A stretch of DNA of 45,671 nucleotides from a virus, in the IMG/VR virus record IMGVR_UViG_3300026518_000017, positions 1 to 45,671 of that record, one strand, 5' to 3'. The notes below the pieces were generated by a model. It had not been told where the DNA came from. It worked only from the letters and a program-made list of their open reading frames with translations, and searched no databases. Of the stretch, positions 1,983 to 36,182 are shown piece after piece; the stretch's first letter is position 1; each line of letters starts with the position of its first letter. The translations under genes were made by a program, and so were the position numbers.

Positions 1983-2152
1983 TTGTCGCCAGAGGGGTTG
2001 TTATATACGCGGCCTGTAAAGGATACCATGAGGATGATAGGCAAGCGGCTATAGATCACGCCAAGAATCACGGACTCACACAGCAGGACGTTGCTATAAG
2101 GGAGCTGGATGATATGTTCATAATTAAAACCAAAAAGGAGATTGAGCTTTGA
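1979..2152 (+). CDS. small conserved-looking protein between helicase and nuclease
   Basis: 57 residues, ATG at 1979 overlapping the helicase stop (ATGA) and ending in a TTGA overlap with the VRR-NUC gene, so translation is coupled on both sides. The sequence MIVARGVVIYAACKG... is a compact alpha/beta-looking protein ending in a basic-acidic tail. No family was recognised. Tight coupling suggests an accessory role to the helicase or nuclease. Confidence 0.8.
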   Translation: MIVARGVVIYAACKGYHEDDRQAAIDHAKNHGLTQQDVAIRELDDMFIIKTKKEIEL

Positions 2153-2637
2153 GTGAATTTAACCGTATGCAGAGGGTTATAAAGCACGCCTCAAAACTTG
2201 GTGCGCGACTTTTCAGGAACAACATAGGGGAAACGTGGATCGGTAAATCTCAATATATTACCAAGACCGATTTTGTAAAAGTTGAGCGTGGCGACGTTGT
2301 GATCCGGAAAGCTCGTCGCTTCCATGCTGGACTCGCTGATTTTTCCGGCGATGCTGTGGGATTCACCCCTGTTATTGTGACTCAAGAAATGGTCGGACAG
2401 ACACTTGCTGTATTTACAAATGCAGAGGTAAAGAAAGACGAAAAGGCCGCAAAAGCGGCCTATAATTCAAAACAAAAAAGAGAAACCGGACAAAGAAAAT
2501 TTATAGAATTTGTCGTAAAAATGGGGGGCATTGCCGGATTTGTAGGCTCTGAGGACGACCTTGATAAATTACTCTCCGGATACCATATCGCCGATAATGC
2601 AAAAAAGCACAAAACACCAAACGATAGGCCAGAATAG
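2149..2637 (+). CDS. VRR-NUC domain nuclease
   Basis: 162 residues starting at a TTG (2149), supported by AAGGAG 8 nt upstream and the 4-bp overlap with the previous gene. The residues GLADFSG... and VFTNAEVKKDE fit the VRR-NUC pattern (G-x-x-D followed by a beta strand and E-V-K), part of the PD-(D/E)XK superfamily. The segment after residue ~105 (RETGQRKFIEFVVKMGG) matches the closing helix of stand-alone phage versions. Such proteins cleave branched DNA such as Holliday junctions or flaps. Its 3' end overlaps the convergent gene 2569-2814. Confidence 0.85.
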   Translation: MSEFNRMQRVIKHASKLGARLFRNNIGETWIGKSQYITKTDFVKVERGDVVIRKARRFHAGLADFSGDAVGFTPVIVTQEMVGQTLAVFTNAEVKKDEKAAKAAYNSKQKRETGQRKFIEFVVKMGGIAGFVGSEDDLDKLLSGYHIADNAKKHKTPNDRPE

Positions 2638-3005: not shown

Positions 3006-3034
3006 TTGACAATATGTTTACATTATTATATCAC
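3006..3034 (+). promoter_or_regulatory. sigma-70-like promoter with early operator motif
   Basis: TTGACA (3006-3011), 17-nt spacer, TATATC (3029-3034; TTATAT at 16 nt also fits). The operator-like GTTGACAATATGTTTAC covers 3005-3021. A second TTGACA at 2984-2989 lies upstream. It would drive 3072-3293 and the recombination genes. Confidence 0.65.
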
Positions 3035-3071: not shown

Positions 3072-3293
3072 ATGGGATTTACAAAAAAAATTAAATTAGC
3101 ATGGGCAATAATGAACATGAGCGCTCGCGGGCGTTCTAAGCTAGTGAAAGCCTATAATGCAACACTTAAAACCTCAGACGATGAATCTTTGTATGTTTGC
3201 CGTCGCGTATCTTTTGGGGTCAATGGAAACTTTGAAAGATACGTCCCTATAACCACAATACAGGAGTCAACAAATGACAGCGCAACTAATTGA
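3072..3293 (+). CDS. small basic protein of unknown function upstream of exonuclease
   Basis: 73 residues from ATG 3072, after AAAGAGG. The N-terminus is basic (GFTKKIKLAWAIMNMSARGRSK). A C-terminal beta-rich part (SLYVCRRVSFGVNGNFERYVP) follows. Its 3' end overlaps the next gene by 20 bp, indicating coupling to the RecE-like gene. It is the first gene after the early promoter at 3006. No family was recognised. Confidence 0.75.
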   Translation: MGFTKKIKLAWAIMNMSARGRSKLVKAYNATLKTSDDESLYVCRRVSFGVNGNFERYVPITTIQESTNDSATN

Positions 3294-4158
3294 GAATATG
3301 AGTAACGACGATTATCACGACCATAAGGCCGTGAGTCGCTCAATGCTTATGGAGTTAAAAAAATCTCCGAAAAAATTTCACTACAAATATTTATCAGGAA
3401 GGTACGAGAAAGAGGACACAATGCCGCTCAAAATTGGCAGTGCATTCCATACGCTTATTCTTGAGCCTGAGCTATTCACCGAGAAAGCGGCGATTATGCC
3501 GGACTACCTGAAAAAGCCCTCCATAACACAAATAAACGCAAAGAACCACTCAGACAGCACCCTACTGCAAATTGAGCAATGGGATAAATTTCACGAGGAA
3601 AACGAGGGTAAAGCTCACCTCAAAAAAGACGACGTTGAAAAGCTCAGGGAAATGGCCGCAGCCATACGAAAAGAGCCAGCAACACAAAAACTTATAGGAC
3701 AAAAGGGTCTCATTGAGCCGTCAATATTTTGGACAGACGAGGAGACTGGCGTACAGGTAAAGGTGAGGATTGATTTTCTGACTCTCGATTACAGGTACAC
3801 AATGGACGTAAAATCAACGGCGGACTGTGATGAGGAGAAATTTTCTCGGTCTATTATTAACTACGGGTACGACGTTCAGGCTTTTATGCAACAAGAGGCT
3901 GTATTCCAACTCACAGGCGAGCGACCGGACGCGACAATCTTTCTTTGTTGTGAAAAAGACGACCCGTATGACACTGGTTTTTATATGGCCGATGATACAG
4001 TATTGCGTCGCGGAGAGCTTTGGTATCGCGAGCTATTAAAGCGCCTCGCCGCTTGTCGTGTAAATGACGTCTGGCCGTCACAGGGAGGCGGTAAAATTAG
4101 GCCGATAGGAATCCCAGCATGGGAGATAAAGAGACTTGAGGAAATCGGAACAAGCTAG
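3274..4158 (+). CDS. RecE-like exonuclease VIII (PD-(D/E)XK)
   Basis: 294 residues, ATG 3274 preceded by CAGGAG. It matches the phage/RecE C-terminal exonuclease pattern: N-terminal YHDHKAVSRSMLMEL and MPLKIGSAFHTLILEP, then VKVRIDFL (~167) and the DVKST core (~177) that supplies the metal-binding Asp and catalytic Lys, and QAFMQQEAV (~200). The enzyme degrades the 5' strand of double-stranded DNA to give 3' overhangs for RecT annealing; recT is encoded two genes downstream. Length fits stand-alone phage RecE nucleases. Confidence 0.9.
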   Translation: MTAQLIENMSNDDYHDHKAVSRSMLMELKKSPKKFHYKYLSGRYEKEDTMPLKIGSAFHTLILEPELFTEKAAIMPDYLKKPSITQINAKNHSDSTLLQIEQWDKFHEENEGKAHLKKDDVEKLREMAAAIRKEPATQKLIGQKGLIEPSIFWTDEETGVQVKVRIDFLTLDYRYTMDVKSTADCDEEKFSRSIINYGYDVQAFMQQEAVFQLTGERPDATIFLCCEKDDPYDTGFYMADDTVLRRGELWYRELLKRLAACRVNDVWPSQGGGKIRPIGIPAWEIKRLEEIGTS

Positions 4159-4283: not shown

Positions 4284-4311
4284 TTGACATTGTGTTTACA
4301 CTTATTGTAAA
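4284..4311 (+). promoter_or_regulatory. promoter with early operator motif
   Basis: TTGACA at 4284-4289 inside the 17-bp operator-like GTTGACATTGTGTTTAC (4283-4299). The -10 is weak (TGTAAA at 4306-4311, 16-nt spacer). It lies 38 bp before the Spo11-like gene. The TAACCAC-AAGGA leader box follows at 4328. Confidence 0.6.
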
Positions 4312-4348: not shown

Positions 4349-5260
4349 ATGCTTATAAAGTACGTTCACCATAAATTTAGAAATGATAGTCTTGAGCTTA
4401 TTGCTCTGGCGAATCAGATTATTAAAGACATGTCGGCGCAGGGCTACGACCTTACGCTCCGTCAATTATATTACCAGTTTGTTGCTCGTGACCTCATAGA
4501 AAACTCAGAGAGAAGTTACAAGAGAATCGGCGCCATGCTCAACAAGGCCAGACTGTCCGGTCTCGTTTCATGGTATGCTATTGAGGATCGTGGTCGACAC
4601 TGCACGAGATACAGTTTTCAAGAGGATGAGCATGAGGTTTTGAACGGCCTACAGTATGGTGTCAACATAGACCACTGGGCGCGTCAGGATACCTATATCG
4701 AGGCATGGGTTGAAAAGGACGCTCTTATCGGTGTTTTAAAAAAACCGTGCGAACGATATGACGTCCCTCACATGGCTTGCAAGGGTTATGTTTCTGCATC
4801 TGAGGCGTGGAGAGCTGGGCGCAGATTTAAGCAAAAGCGCGAAGAAGGTAAGAACTGCGTATTGATACACCTCGGAGACCATGACCCCAGCGGCCTTGAT
4901 ATGACAAGAGATAATCGTGACAGGCTCACACTATTCTCAGAATCTAACGGCGTTGAGGTTATCAGGCTCGCCTTAAATATGGATCAAATTGAGGAACTCA
5001 AGCCGCCGCCGAATCCCGCGAAACTAACTGATAGCCGTTGCGGTGGATACATATCCCAGTACGGAAAATCATCATGGGAGCTTGACGCGCTCGACCCGAA
5101 ATATATCGACAATATTGTCACCAACGAAATCGAGAAACATATTGATTTCGACGAGTGGGAAAGATGCACCGATATACAAGAGGAGCGCAGACAATACCTG
5201 TCACGCCTATACGGTAGCTGGGACGAGGTTAAAGACTTTTTAGATGAGAATGGACTATAA
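4349..5260 (+). CDS. Spo11/topoisomerase VI subunit A-like Toprim protein
   Basis: 303 residues, ATG 4349 after AAGGA. Residues ~36-44 (TLRQLYYQF) resemble the catalytic-tyrosine motif of the winged-helix (5Y-CAP) domain of TopoVI-A/Spo11, and the following YKRIGAMLNKARLSGLVSW looks like the rest of that domain. A Toprim domain follows with the Glu in WVEKDAL (~121) and the DxD in GDHDPSG (~177-179). This domain order is the TopoVI-A/Spo11 order. No partner resembling TopoVI-B was recognised here. Position between the RecE-like exonuclease and RecT suggests a role in making or processing DNA breaks. The assignment rests on motif reading; strand cleavage is not shown. Confidence 0.75.
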   Translation: MLIKYVHHKFRNDSLELIALANQIIKDMSAQGYDLTLRQLYYQFVARDLIENSERSYKRIGAMLNKARLSGLVSWYAIEDRGRHCTRYSFQEDEHEVLNGLQYGVNIDHWARQDTYIEAWVEKDALIGVLKKPCERYDVPHMACKGYVSASEAWRAGRRFKQKREEGKNCVLIHLGDHDPSGLDMTRDNRDRLTLFSESNGVEVIRLALNMDQIEELKPPPNPAKLTDSRCGGYISQYGKSSWELDALDPKYIDNIVTNEIEKHIDFDEWERCTDIQEERRQYLSRLYGSWDEVKDFLDENGL

Positions 5261-5262
5261 TC

Positions 5263-6141
5263 ATGGGAAACAATTTACAGGTAATAGGCAACACCTTAAG
5301 AAGCGCCGAGACTCAAGGTAAGTTAATGCTTGCTCTTGGTGTCAATAACCCGAAAAGCACAGAGGCGAAAAATGAGGCAAAAAAATACTGCGCCTCAGTC
5401 CTCGCCGAGGTTGAAAAGTCAGCCGGATCAAAGAACGACCTGACGACATGTAACCCTGACAGCATTGTAAAGTGCATGATTGACGCAGCTCAATTTCGCC
5501 TAATGATCGACGGGCGACAACACGCGCACCTCATAAAATACGGTAACGCCGTGAGTCTACAGATAGGTTATAGGGGGTATCTCGCAAAAATTGCAGAGCA
5601 TTACGAGGACGCTGACATAAACGTCTTTCCGGTTTATAAGGGGGACACCCTAGAGATATCAGGGAAAGGCGGTTTTGACGATTACGAGTACAAACGCGCC
5701 AATAATTTCCCGTCTGACAATGATTTCGAGGGTGTATGTGCCGCTCTTTATTACAAGAAAGGCGGGCGTGAGTTTCAAAAGGTCATAACCATGTCGGCGT
5801 CTGAGATACAAAAAATCAGGAACGTCGCAAAGCAGGACTTTATCTGGAAAGCGTGGTTTATCGAGAAAGCAAAGGCGGCGGCGATTAAGCGGTTGTGCAA
5901 GGTGCAATTCTCAAGCATGACCCTCATTCAGGACATGATAAACTATGACAATAAGGAGGGCTTTGACATGGATAAGCAGAATATGAACAGCGGCTCTCGG
6001 TCTATTCTTGATAATCTAAACGAGGGAATTGATAAGGTTTTACCGAAAAAGGACGAGCAACCCACCAGCGACGACCAGCCGGACGATGAGGATATCATTG
6101 AGGGCGAGATCATAAACGACGATGGGAGCATGGTGATATGA
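5263..6141 (+). CDS. recT: RecT-family single-strand annealing protein
   Basis: 292 residues, ATG 5263 immediately after the previous stop. It carries the RecT signature: an N-terminal helical region, MIDGRQHAHLIKYGNAVSLQIGYRG (~85-108), a central beta region, and WKAWFIEKAKAAAIKRLCK near residues 195-215. The C-terminal ~60 residues are disordered and strongly acidic (SDDQPDDEDIIEGE). It anneals complementary single strands exposed by the exonuclease and is the standard partner of RecE. Its stop overlaps the next start by 4 bp. Confidence 0.94.
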   Translation: MGNNLQVIGNTLRSAETQGKLMLALGVNNPKSTEAKNEAKKYCASVLAEVEKSAGSKNDLTTCNPDSIVKCMIDAAQFRLMIDGRQHAHLIKYGNAVSLQIGYRGYLAKIAEHYEDADINVFPVYKGDTLEISGKGGFDDYEYKRANNFPSDNDFEGVCAALYYKKGGREFQKVITMSASEIQKIRNVAKQDFIWKAWFIEKAKAAAIKRLCKVQFSSMTLIQDMINYDNKEGFDMDKQNMNSGSRSILDNLNEGIDKVLPKKDEQPTSDDQPDDEDIIEGEIINDDGSMVI

Positions 6142-6740
6142 GTGGAAAAATTATTCTTGATTTATGTGGCGGGACAGGCGCTTGGTCAAAGCCGTACGCT
6201 GACGCCGGGTACACCGTTTACAATATAACACACCCGCATGACGACGTTTTCGACTATGAAGGGTACAAAGATTTACCGTCTGTTTACGGCATTCTGGCCG
6301 CTCCGACTTGCACAATGTTTTCTCTGGCAAGAACAACGGCAAAAACACCACGGGATTTAGAGGGTGGGTTTAAGCTCGTGCATAGGTGTTTAGAAATTAT
6401 TTGGTATTGCCGATTCCATAAAGACCTTAAATTTTGGGCTTTGGAAAACCCTATGGGGTATTTACGTCAAATACTTGGCAAGCCTCCCTTAACAATGAAC
6501 CCGGCAGACTACGGAGCAAACTATACAAAAAGAACGGACATATGGGGATATTACAACATGCCGAGAAAATCGCCGCGTATAATGACAGACGAAGAAAAAG
6601 AAAGGTGCGCAACCAATAATAGAAAGTTGCCACCCCTGCCGGATGGCTATGTTTTACCTGATAATTTTAGGCCACAACAAGCAAGGCGCAGCATAACGGA
6701 CAACCATTTTGCGCAAGCATTTTTTAAAGCGAATAAATAG
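6138..6740 (+). CDS. C5-cytosine-type DNA methyltransferase (short phage form)
   Basis: 200 residues, starting in an ATGA overlap with recT. SAM-binding motif I is DLCGGTGAWSKP (~8). The PTCTMFS segment (~56) corresponds to the motif IV P-C loop with catalytic Cys, here with Thr in place of the second Pro. ALENPMGYLR (~105) corresponds to motif VI (EN-V/P). KRTDIWG (~131) fits motif VIII. It lacks a full target-recognition domain, so specificity is unknown. It likely modifies phage DNA against restriction. Other possibilities such as a hypermodification enzyme cannot be excluded. Confidence 0.85.
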   Translation: MSGKIILDLCGGTGAWSKPYADAGYTVYNITHPHDDVFDYEGYKDLPSVYGILAAPTCTMFSLARTTAKTPRDLEGGFKLVHRCLEIIWYCRFHKDLKFWALENPMGYLRQILGKPPLTMNPADYGANYTKRTDIWGYYNMPRKSPRIMTDEEKERCATNNRKLPPLPDGYVLPDNFRPQQARRSITDNHFAQAFFKANK

Positions 6741-6769
6741 TTGACAATGTGTAAACACCGTGTTATCGT
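6741..6769 (+). promoter_or_regulatory. promoter with early operator motif
   Basis: TTGACA (6741-6746), 17-nt spacer, TATCGT (6764-6769). The 17-bp operator-like GTTGACAATGTGTAAAC occupies 6740-6756, with near-perfect dyad arms. It drives the three small genes 6799-7498. Confidence 0.75.
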
Positions 6770-35153: not shown

Positions 35154-36092
35154 TCAAAAAACCCTCACAGGCATTAAAACCGCAATCTGACCCATATAAT
35201 CCTTGCCCCTAACCAATAGAGGGGAGGAGGAGTCTCCATACTCAGCGTCTCCGGAGCATATTTCACACAGGTAATTTATGTTAAACCCTGCCTTGAGCGG
35301 GATCGTTGTGTCCCAATCGACTCCGGTCTTATGAAAGTCTCCGGATACCGTAATTTTTCCACCCTCAATGATAACAGCCGCTTTTTTGGGTTTTTGACCG
35401 TTGATTTTCGCAATAACATGCACATGAGGGCGTATTTTTATAAAATCACCGATATCAATTTCACAGCGCCCGTCATTTTCAGGGATAACTCTTTCCCATT
35501 GTGGGAATTTGCCGTCAATCGTGCGGCCATAAATTCGCGCTCCGGCTATGTGAGCAATATAGTGGTTACAATCGAAAAACTCCAAAGTGACCGCGTTGGC
35601 TCTCAGCTCTTTCGCGAGTGAGGTGATGAGGCTCACAGCCTTTCGAGGCAATATCGGGCGTCCCTCAATCGCGGCGTTTACGTCTACAACGTGGAGAAAG
35701 TGCCCGTTAGTTGCGACGGCCTTGTCGTGATCGAAACAAATGCCATTGAGATAATAGCGGGTCTCCTCAGTGCTCTGCGCTCGACCGACCCATGACAAGG
35801 CTTGTAACTTTCCAGCATCCAAAGACACAGAGCCAAGTGATTCGCCTTTTATGTTTTCCTCAATATTTGGGAAATCTCCGGAATCCTCACCAGCCTCAAT
35901 AAATAGGCCGACCTTAAAGCCCTCGTTAAAATACACGCCATTATCAAGGTGTGTCGGTACTGTGACATAGTGATCCATATCGGTTGAGGTGGCCATGCCA
36001 TCCTTTACGAGAACCCTGTCCAAAACTGGGATAGTGTTCCGCTTGTAAATGTTGCTTACAAGGGTTTTTGATTTTGTGGTTTTAATATCCAT
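35154..36092 (-). CDS. dnaN-like: DNA polymerase III beta sliding-clamp homologue
   Basis: 312 residues from ATG 36092, chosen because AAAGGA lies 8 nt upstream; an in-frame start at 36125 lacks this. Beta clamp landmarks: GKFPQWERVIP (~185-195; compare GKFPDYxRVIP in DnaN) and the C-terminal AVLMPVRVF (compare VLMPMRL). Somewhat shorter than bacterial clamps (~370). It should encircle DNA and tether polymerase. No phage polymerase was recognised, so host polymerase III is the likely client. Preceded by a structured leader and an operator-controlled promoter. Confidence 0.88.
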   Translation of the reverse strand: MDIKTTKSKTLVSNIYKRNTIPVLDRVLVKDGMATSTDMDHYVTVPTHLDNGVYFNEGFKVGLFIEAGEDSGDFPNIEENIKGESLGSVSLDAGKLQALSWVGRAQSTEETRYYLNGICFDHDKAVATNGHFLHVVDVNAAIEGRPILPRKAVSLITSLAKELRANAVTLEFFDCNHYIAHIAGARIYGRTIDGKFPQWERVIPENDGRCEIDIGDFIKIRPHVHVIAKINGQKPKKAAVIIEGGKITVSGDFHKTGVDWDTTIPLKAGFNINYLCEICSGDAEYGDSSSPLLVRGKDYMGQIAVLMPVRVF

Positions 36093-36119
36093 GATTTTAA
36101 ATCCTTTGTGGTTAATTGT

Positions 36120-36182
36120 GGACACAGCGAGAGCATATCTTTCTGATAGGCGCGGAATCTTACCGACGACCTCGCTGTGTCC
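36120..36182 (-). other. structured 5' leader of the clamp gene
   Basis: A perfect 12-bp inverted repeat (36120-36131 with 36171-36182, loop 39 nt) ends ~28 nt before the clamp ATG. Further hairpins (GAGC-GGTTT-GCTC and CCCT/AGGG pairs) lie upstream in the ~145-nt leader. It could control translation of the clamp. No known riboswitch recognised. Confidence 0.55.

Follow-up and report, generated by a model that had tools for sequence, protein, structure and literature searches.

The 45,671-base IMG/VR virus record IMGVR_UViG_3300026518_000017, analyzed here over its whole length (the window), encodes a 303 amino acid Mini-A protein, a relative of Top6A (TopoVI-A) and Spo11 that consists of a winged helix and a Toprim domain. 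We consider it likely that this phage protein acts as a homodimer that breaks DNA via Tyr42, and that it does so without TopoVI-B. Database matches show the protein to be a Mini-A. It matches phrog_6247 "DNA topoisomerase" of PHROGs along its full length (residues 3-301, E 6.5e-117), and tblastn finds its relatives in 76 phage records, 74 of which cover at least 80% of the query, as well as in 44 plasmid records. Given the E value of the phrog_6247 match, the 76 phage records and the invariant motif residues described below, the match goes beyond chance. In Pseudomonas phage NP1, listed as a Mini-A carrier in the figure 4 legend of PMC7614492, the corresponding protein is 46% identical to the window protein over 94% (E 2e-72). 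The archaeal plasmid protein LC711082.1, 26-27% identical over 86% (E 7e-19), is annotated "Topo Mini-A", an annotation found on plasmid matches from uncultured archaea. The family was first described by Takahashi et al. 2020 and is covered by the reviews PMC7614492, PMC8185306 and PMC11302465. Judged by its sequence, the window protein is therefore a fresh member of an already published family and no discovery of an unrecognised protein. It shows no essential difference from the published Mini-A: it resides on a mobile element (a virus record here, phages and plasmids for its relatives), and its predicted structure is that of a truncated Top6A reduced to winged helix and Toprim alone. In total, Mini-A is encoded by at least 591 viral stretches and at least 173 genome stretches.

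The residues conserved in this family are those expected of a Spo11-type active site. The original prediction, made from the DNA letters alone, had pointed to an LYYQF motif in a winged-helix-like region followed by a Toprim Glu and a DxD, in the order of TopoVI-A, and both the open reading frame (ORF) and the motifs were confirmed at their positions. The motif T36-L-R-Q-L-Y41-Y42-Q-F44 lies within a helix of the predicted winged-helix domain, and C-terminal to it come E122 (WVEKDAL) and then D177-H-D179-P-S-G. To follow these residues across homologues, 114 loci from two viral scans (the second represented by 80 of at least 591 relatives) were reduced to 95 distinct proteins; the alignment has 95 rows as well, as the window protein was included and the L033 row, cut inside an intein, was not. 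R38, Q39 and Y42 are invariant (95/95), whereas Y41 is present in 91 of 95, the others having Phe (three) or His (one). E122, D177, D179 and E244 are each found in 94 of 94 proteins (row L045 is incomplete, hence the lower number for C-terminal residues), a conservation that is partly selected within DPSGxDM and LNMDQIE, D179 included, since these were spanned by the search patterns of the second scan. The Tyr region and E122 lie outside those patterns. In further relatives, 20 with named records and 6 on genome contigs, the second Tyr is kept in every full-length protein, down to 22% identity, whereas five of the relatives below 30% identity have Ala, Trp or Phe in place of the first. A Saccharopolyspora relative of 237 amino acids, with no Tyr at the motif position, appears N-terminally short. 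Loss of the Tyr in homologues had been named beforehand as a finding that would speak against the enzyme; for Tyr42 no such loss is seen in any full-length protein, whereas Tyr41, proposed along with it, is not always kept. Because the second Tyr is always kept and the first is not, Tyr42 is the predicted nucleophile.

Likewise, the second Tyr is the catalytic one in Spo11, Y135 in yeast and Y138 in mouse (PMC11746154, PMC11922746). R38 stands four residues before Y42, like R131 and Y135 of yeast Spo11 (PMC11746154), and the same spacing is found between R102 and Y106 of M. mazei Top6A (PMC13040014). Indeed, the whole residue set of yeast Spo11 (R131, Y135, E233, D288, D290) is common to Mini-A. 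M. mazei Top6A is described as having an R102-E342 clasp, and its E342Q substitution as raising cleavage (PMC13040014). By motif resemblance, R38 and E244 may be the counterpart of this clasp. In a distant clade of Mini-A relatives (L242, L243, L245) TQAEAL stands in place of WELDAL, possibly with Gln for the clasp Glu, in a region where the alignment is uncertain.

The predicted structure is consistent with the same assignment. The AlphaFold2 model of the whole protein, built from 28 sequences, has a predicted local distance difference test score (pLDDT) of 89.1 and a predicted template modelling score of 0.81; the winged-helix domain alone, predicted from 86 sequences, has a pLDDT of 89.5. 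A structure prediction followed by fold comparison was the check that the original prediction had proposed, and it places TopoVI-A 1d3y first for both domains, with tied margins. In VIA-align, with rows within 1 Z unit counted as tied, the Toprim domain of the whole model, compared with the 1,000 best of Foldseek, aligns to 1d3y with Z 11.2 and a root mean square deviation (rmsd) of 2.9 (136 aligned, model 115-264 on 190-364). The winged helix alone aligns to 1d3y with Z 7.8 and an rmsd of 2.4 (69 aligned, residues 11-82 of the model on 72-143). Its numbering is offset by 61 at the start and at the end of the range, which would put Y42 on residue 103, and the Toprim shift is 75 at the start of its range, which puts E122 on 197. 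Both registers are inferred from the end points of the model alignments. Residue 103 is given as the active-site Tyr of MjTopVIA (PMC3102714), and E197 as the metal-binding Glu of 1D3Y (PMC11746154).

Several results weigh against this assignment. No family of Pfam or NCBIfam exceeds its cut-off with the protein, a PDB search with its sequence gives no match, and Foldseek alone gives no PDB match at E <= 0.001 for either the complete model or the separate winged helix. Pfam TP6A_N, with a cut-off of 26 bits, scores the protein at 12.4 bits over residues 23-44. The best structural rows are tied: on the Toprim domain with MksG 8b7f (Z 11.1) and a small Toprim protein (10.2), and on the winged helix with other winged helices, among them Zur (6.9). 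The Toprim tie also takes in M. mazei Top6A (10.7) and S. shibatae Top6A 2zbk (10.3); below it come JetD 7til (10.0) and Spo11 (9.3). Profile comparison is likewise marginal. Against a Top6A profile of 28 proteins with an R-x-[IVL]-Y-Y motif, drawn from thirty loci of one archaeal class, hhalign gives a weak match of 30 columns in which TLRxLYY is in register; it scores 26.0, and reversed controls score 15.0 and 11.4. A Mini-A set of greater diversity gives a match of 200 columns that keeps Tyr, Toprim Glu, DxD and a segment further downstream in register, at a score of 24.2 that 2 of 200 column shuffles beat. Matches of the protein to Cytidylate_kin, PRK11860 and Cry7 were set aside as noise.

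Since TP6A_N stays below its cut-off, Mini-A is not to be filed as Top6A or Spo11 itself. It is related to Top6A by fold, 1d3y being the best structural row for each modelled domain separately, and by motif order: RxxxY in the winged helix, the Toprim Glu, the DxD and the candidate clasp Glu. It differs from Top6A in that sequence similarity is near noise and in that Top6A has a TopoVI-B partner and Mini-A does not. From Spo11 it differs by the absence of a recognisable full-length sequence match and of meiotic partners.

How might such a protein cut DNA on its own? The original prediction had seen no B subunit, and the TopoVI-B transducer PF09239 is indeed found in 0 of 50 Mini-A records (the window and 49 others), a search made with one model in records that may be incomplete. 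Mouse SPO11 dimers are reported to cut DNA without partners and to stay on the 5' ends; their active sites are formed jointly by two chains, and nicks can be resealed (PMC11922746). Given that SPO11, at least in mouse, cleaves without a B subunit, as proposed here for Mini-A, the missing subunit is no longer puzzling for cutting. A single chain of Spo11 or Top6A gives its Tyr to one half-site and its Toprim to the other (PMC11746154, PMC11922746). A Tyr distant from the Toprim site in a monomer model, which had been put forward as a possible refutation, is therefore no argument against a Spo11-like protein. From the conserved residue set, the domain-wise fold matches and what is published on SPO11 acting alone, we infer cleavage by a homodimer: Tyr42 of one chain would attack DNA that the other chain holds through its Toprim metals (E122, D177, D179), and the product would be a 5'-phosphotyrosyl nick or a staggered double-strand break, possibly resealed. 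The earlier description of a Spo11/TopoVI-A-like protein with an intact Tyr and Toprim set and no B subunit thus stands.

What Mini-A breaks are for is a separate matter. They may start recombination, relax or nick replicating DNA, or attack other DNA; the papers and searches covered here report no Mini-A activity or function. A tentative case can be made for a nicking-closing or relaxing enzyme of replicating phage DNA, in which loose dimers would cut one strand and reseal it, with no strand passage, so that a B subunit would be unneeded. The 50 records without a B subunit agree with it, as does the report that SPO11 can reseal nicks and, with one site active, relax a plasmid (PMC11922746). 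In several phages Mini-A has annotated neighbours concerned with replication or nucleotides (DNA polymerase, ThyX, ligase), but for many of the neighbour families no function is described.

It is rather unlikely that Mini-A cuts DNA for the specific purpose of initiating RecE/RecT recombination in the phage, although the window itself suggests it. There, as the original prediction held, Mini-A is flanked by a RecE-like nuclease (DUF3799/phrog_412) upstream and RecT (PF03837) downstream; the three genes are consecutive, Mini-A and RecT are co-directional, and 2 bases separate the Mini-A stop codon from the RecT start. This spacing makes it probable that Mini-A and RecT are co-expressed, as early DNA-metabolism proteins of the window phage. 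Similar arrangements occur elsewhere: the prophage-like contig L173 has the order RecE-RecT-orf-MiniA, in record G031 (loci L006/L068) RecE and RecT precede Mini-A, both within about 4 kb of it, and RecT is close to Mini-A in record G027. Sak4 adjoins Mini-A in NP1, and in Fizzles a Cas4-type exonuclease adjoins it, with a recombinase nearby. Against this stand the counts across the family. Of the 69 loci whose flanks are complete, 50 were searched; RecT (PF03837) occurs in 3 of these 50 Mini-A virus records and DUF3799 in 3. A survey of the nearest ORFs of at least 130 amino acids at the 69 loci (136 of 137 aligned, the very long antisense ORF L044:6409-10911 being dropped) found the commonest PHROG in 5 of 136 neighbours, Holliday resolvase in 4, RecE-like exonuclease in 2 and UvsX-like proteins in 2; such ORF-based calls, and tblastn calls too, are naive, in that they overlook distant genes such as the RecT of L173. 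In tblastn with the window RecT, the flanks of 0 of 194 loci show a relative, a weak search that also missed the RecT of L173. Nine further annotated Mini-A phages have varied neighbours.

A conserved RecE-MiniA-RecT cassette was therefore rejected as a rule of the family, and with it the general form of the earlier idea that the enzyme feeds RecE-like/RecT recombination; the flanking genes are a feature of the window phage, and the linkage recurs in two further lineages only (L173; L006/L068). A biochemical objection points the same way: a 5' end blocked by protein must first be trimmed before a RecE-type 5'-3' exonuclease can act on it. That a B-less Spo11-type enzyme in a phage RecE/RecT operon makes programmed, protein-linked breaks to start phage recombination is accordingly an unlikely reading, which may hold for a minority of Mini-A phages (the window, L173, L006/L068).

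Two further explanations bear on the cleavage chemistry itself, and both are far less probable than Tyr42 cleavage by a homodimer. The protein might be a Toprim nuclease that makes no use of the winged-helix Tyr, like MksG/JetD, the nucleases of the Wadjet/MksBEFG type of plasmid defence that act with SMC proteins. MksG and JetD have a Toprim fold of the Top6A type, as Mini-A has, and their closeness to the modelled Toprim domain (8b7f in the tie with TopoVI-A, 7til just below it) speaks for this idea; yet the winged helix alone ranks 1d3y first, Y42 is invariant in Mini-A whereas MksG has no Tyr there, and no SMC family match was found among the subset of window ORFs scanned, so that we regard it as very improbable. 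Top6A normally acts with a B subunit and phages often use host proteins, and Mini-A could on that ground supply the cleavage subunit of a full topoisomerase whose ATPase or B-like partner comes from the host. This is the least probable explanation, as no common B partner is known across the many host phyla and SPO11 is reported to cleave without a partner (PMC11922746).

The features of the locus are collected in the table below. Portal, terminase and tail sheath genes were detected in the window, which identifies its source as a tailed phage. The repeat TTGACANNNTGTNNACA has 24 matches at up to 2 mismatches in the window, against 3.46 expected, and 0 of 100 shuffles reach 24. Three early gene groups are each preceded by an exact copy of it. 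Also in the window, a TTG-start ORF at 2149-2637 (+) matches the phrog_93 endonuclease (E 4.8e-10), relatives of which lie near Mini-A at a few other loci, and a 323 amino acid ORF at 35154-36125 (-) matches two families, one of phage DNA polymerase processivity factors and one of RusA-like Holliday resolvases.

Table. Mini-A, its predicted functional residues and the neighbouring features in the window.
Feature	Position	Strand	Basis
Mini-A (Spo11/TopoVI-A-like), 303 aa	4349..5260	+	ATG start; winged helix about residues 11-82, Toprim about 115-264
R38-x3-Y42, predicted nucleophile Tyr42	4460..4474	+	conservation and register on Tyr103 of 1d3y
E122, predicted Toprim metal-binding Glu	4712..4714	+	register of E197 (1d3y) and E202 (M. 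mazei Top6A); 94/94
D177-H-D179, predicted Toprim DxD	4877..4885	+	94/94 each
E244 (WELDAL), candidate clasp Glu, counterpart of Top6A E342 (KAEQQA)	5078..5080	+	motif and order only; 94/94
RecE/ExoVIII-type PDDEXK nuclease	3274..4158	+	DUF3799 E 2.4e-36; phrog_412 exonuclease VIII E 1.2e-75
RecT single-strand annealing protein	5263..6141	+	PF03837 E 1.9e-24
DNA methyltransferase-like	6138..6740	+	phrog_757; start overlaps RecT stop
Operator/promoter-like repeat TTGACANNNTGTNNACA	4284..4300	+	upstream of Mini-A; exact copies at 3006-3022 (before 3274) and 6741-6757

The wider family holds some variants of its own. Close relatives (45-48% identity) are found on contigs labelled Methanimicrococcus and Nanoarchaeota (L205, L182). 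At L033 and at L034 (3549-5612) Mini-A carries an intein-like insert that starts with CFLPGTPV, ends with THN and lies directly before the Toprim Glu, in an ORF of 687 amino acids. On Streptomyces and Kitasatospora plasmids, distant relatives lie near the ends, 27 of 32 in the outer quarters against 16 expected, in rows that are related to each other; topology is known for only 4 of these plasmids, and all 4 are linear.

Spo11 and Top6A are difficult to work with, because in most cases they cleave DNA only with partners or under special conditions. Mini-A is small and common and keeps the full catalytic set, and would thus offer a minimal system for a Top6A-type module without a B subunit. If Mini-A does start recombination in some phages, it would be a viral counterpart of meiotic break initiation.
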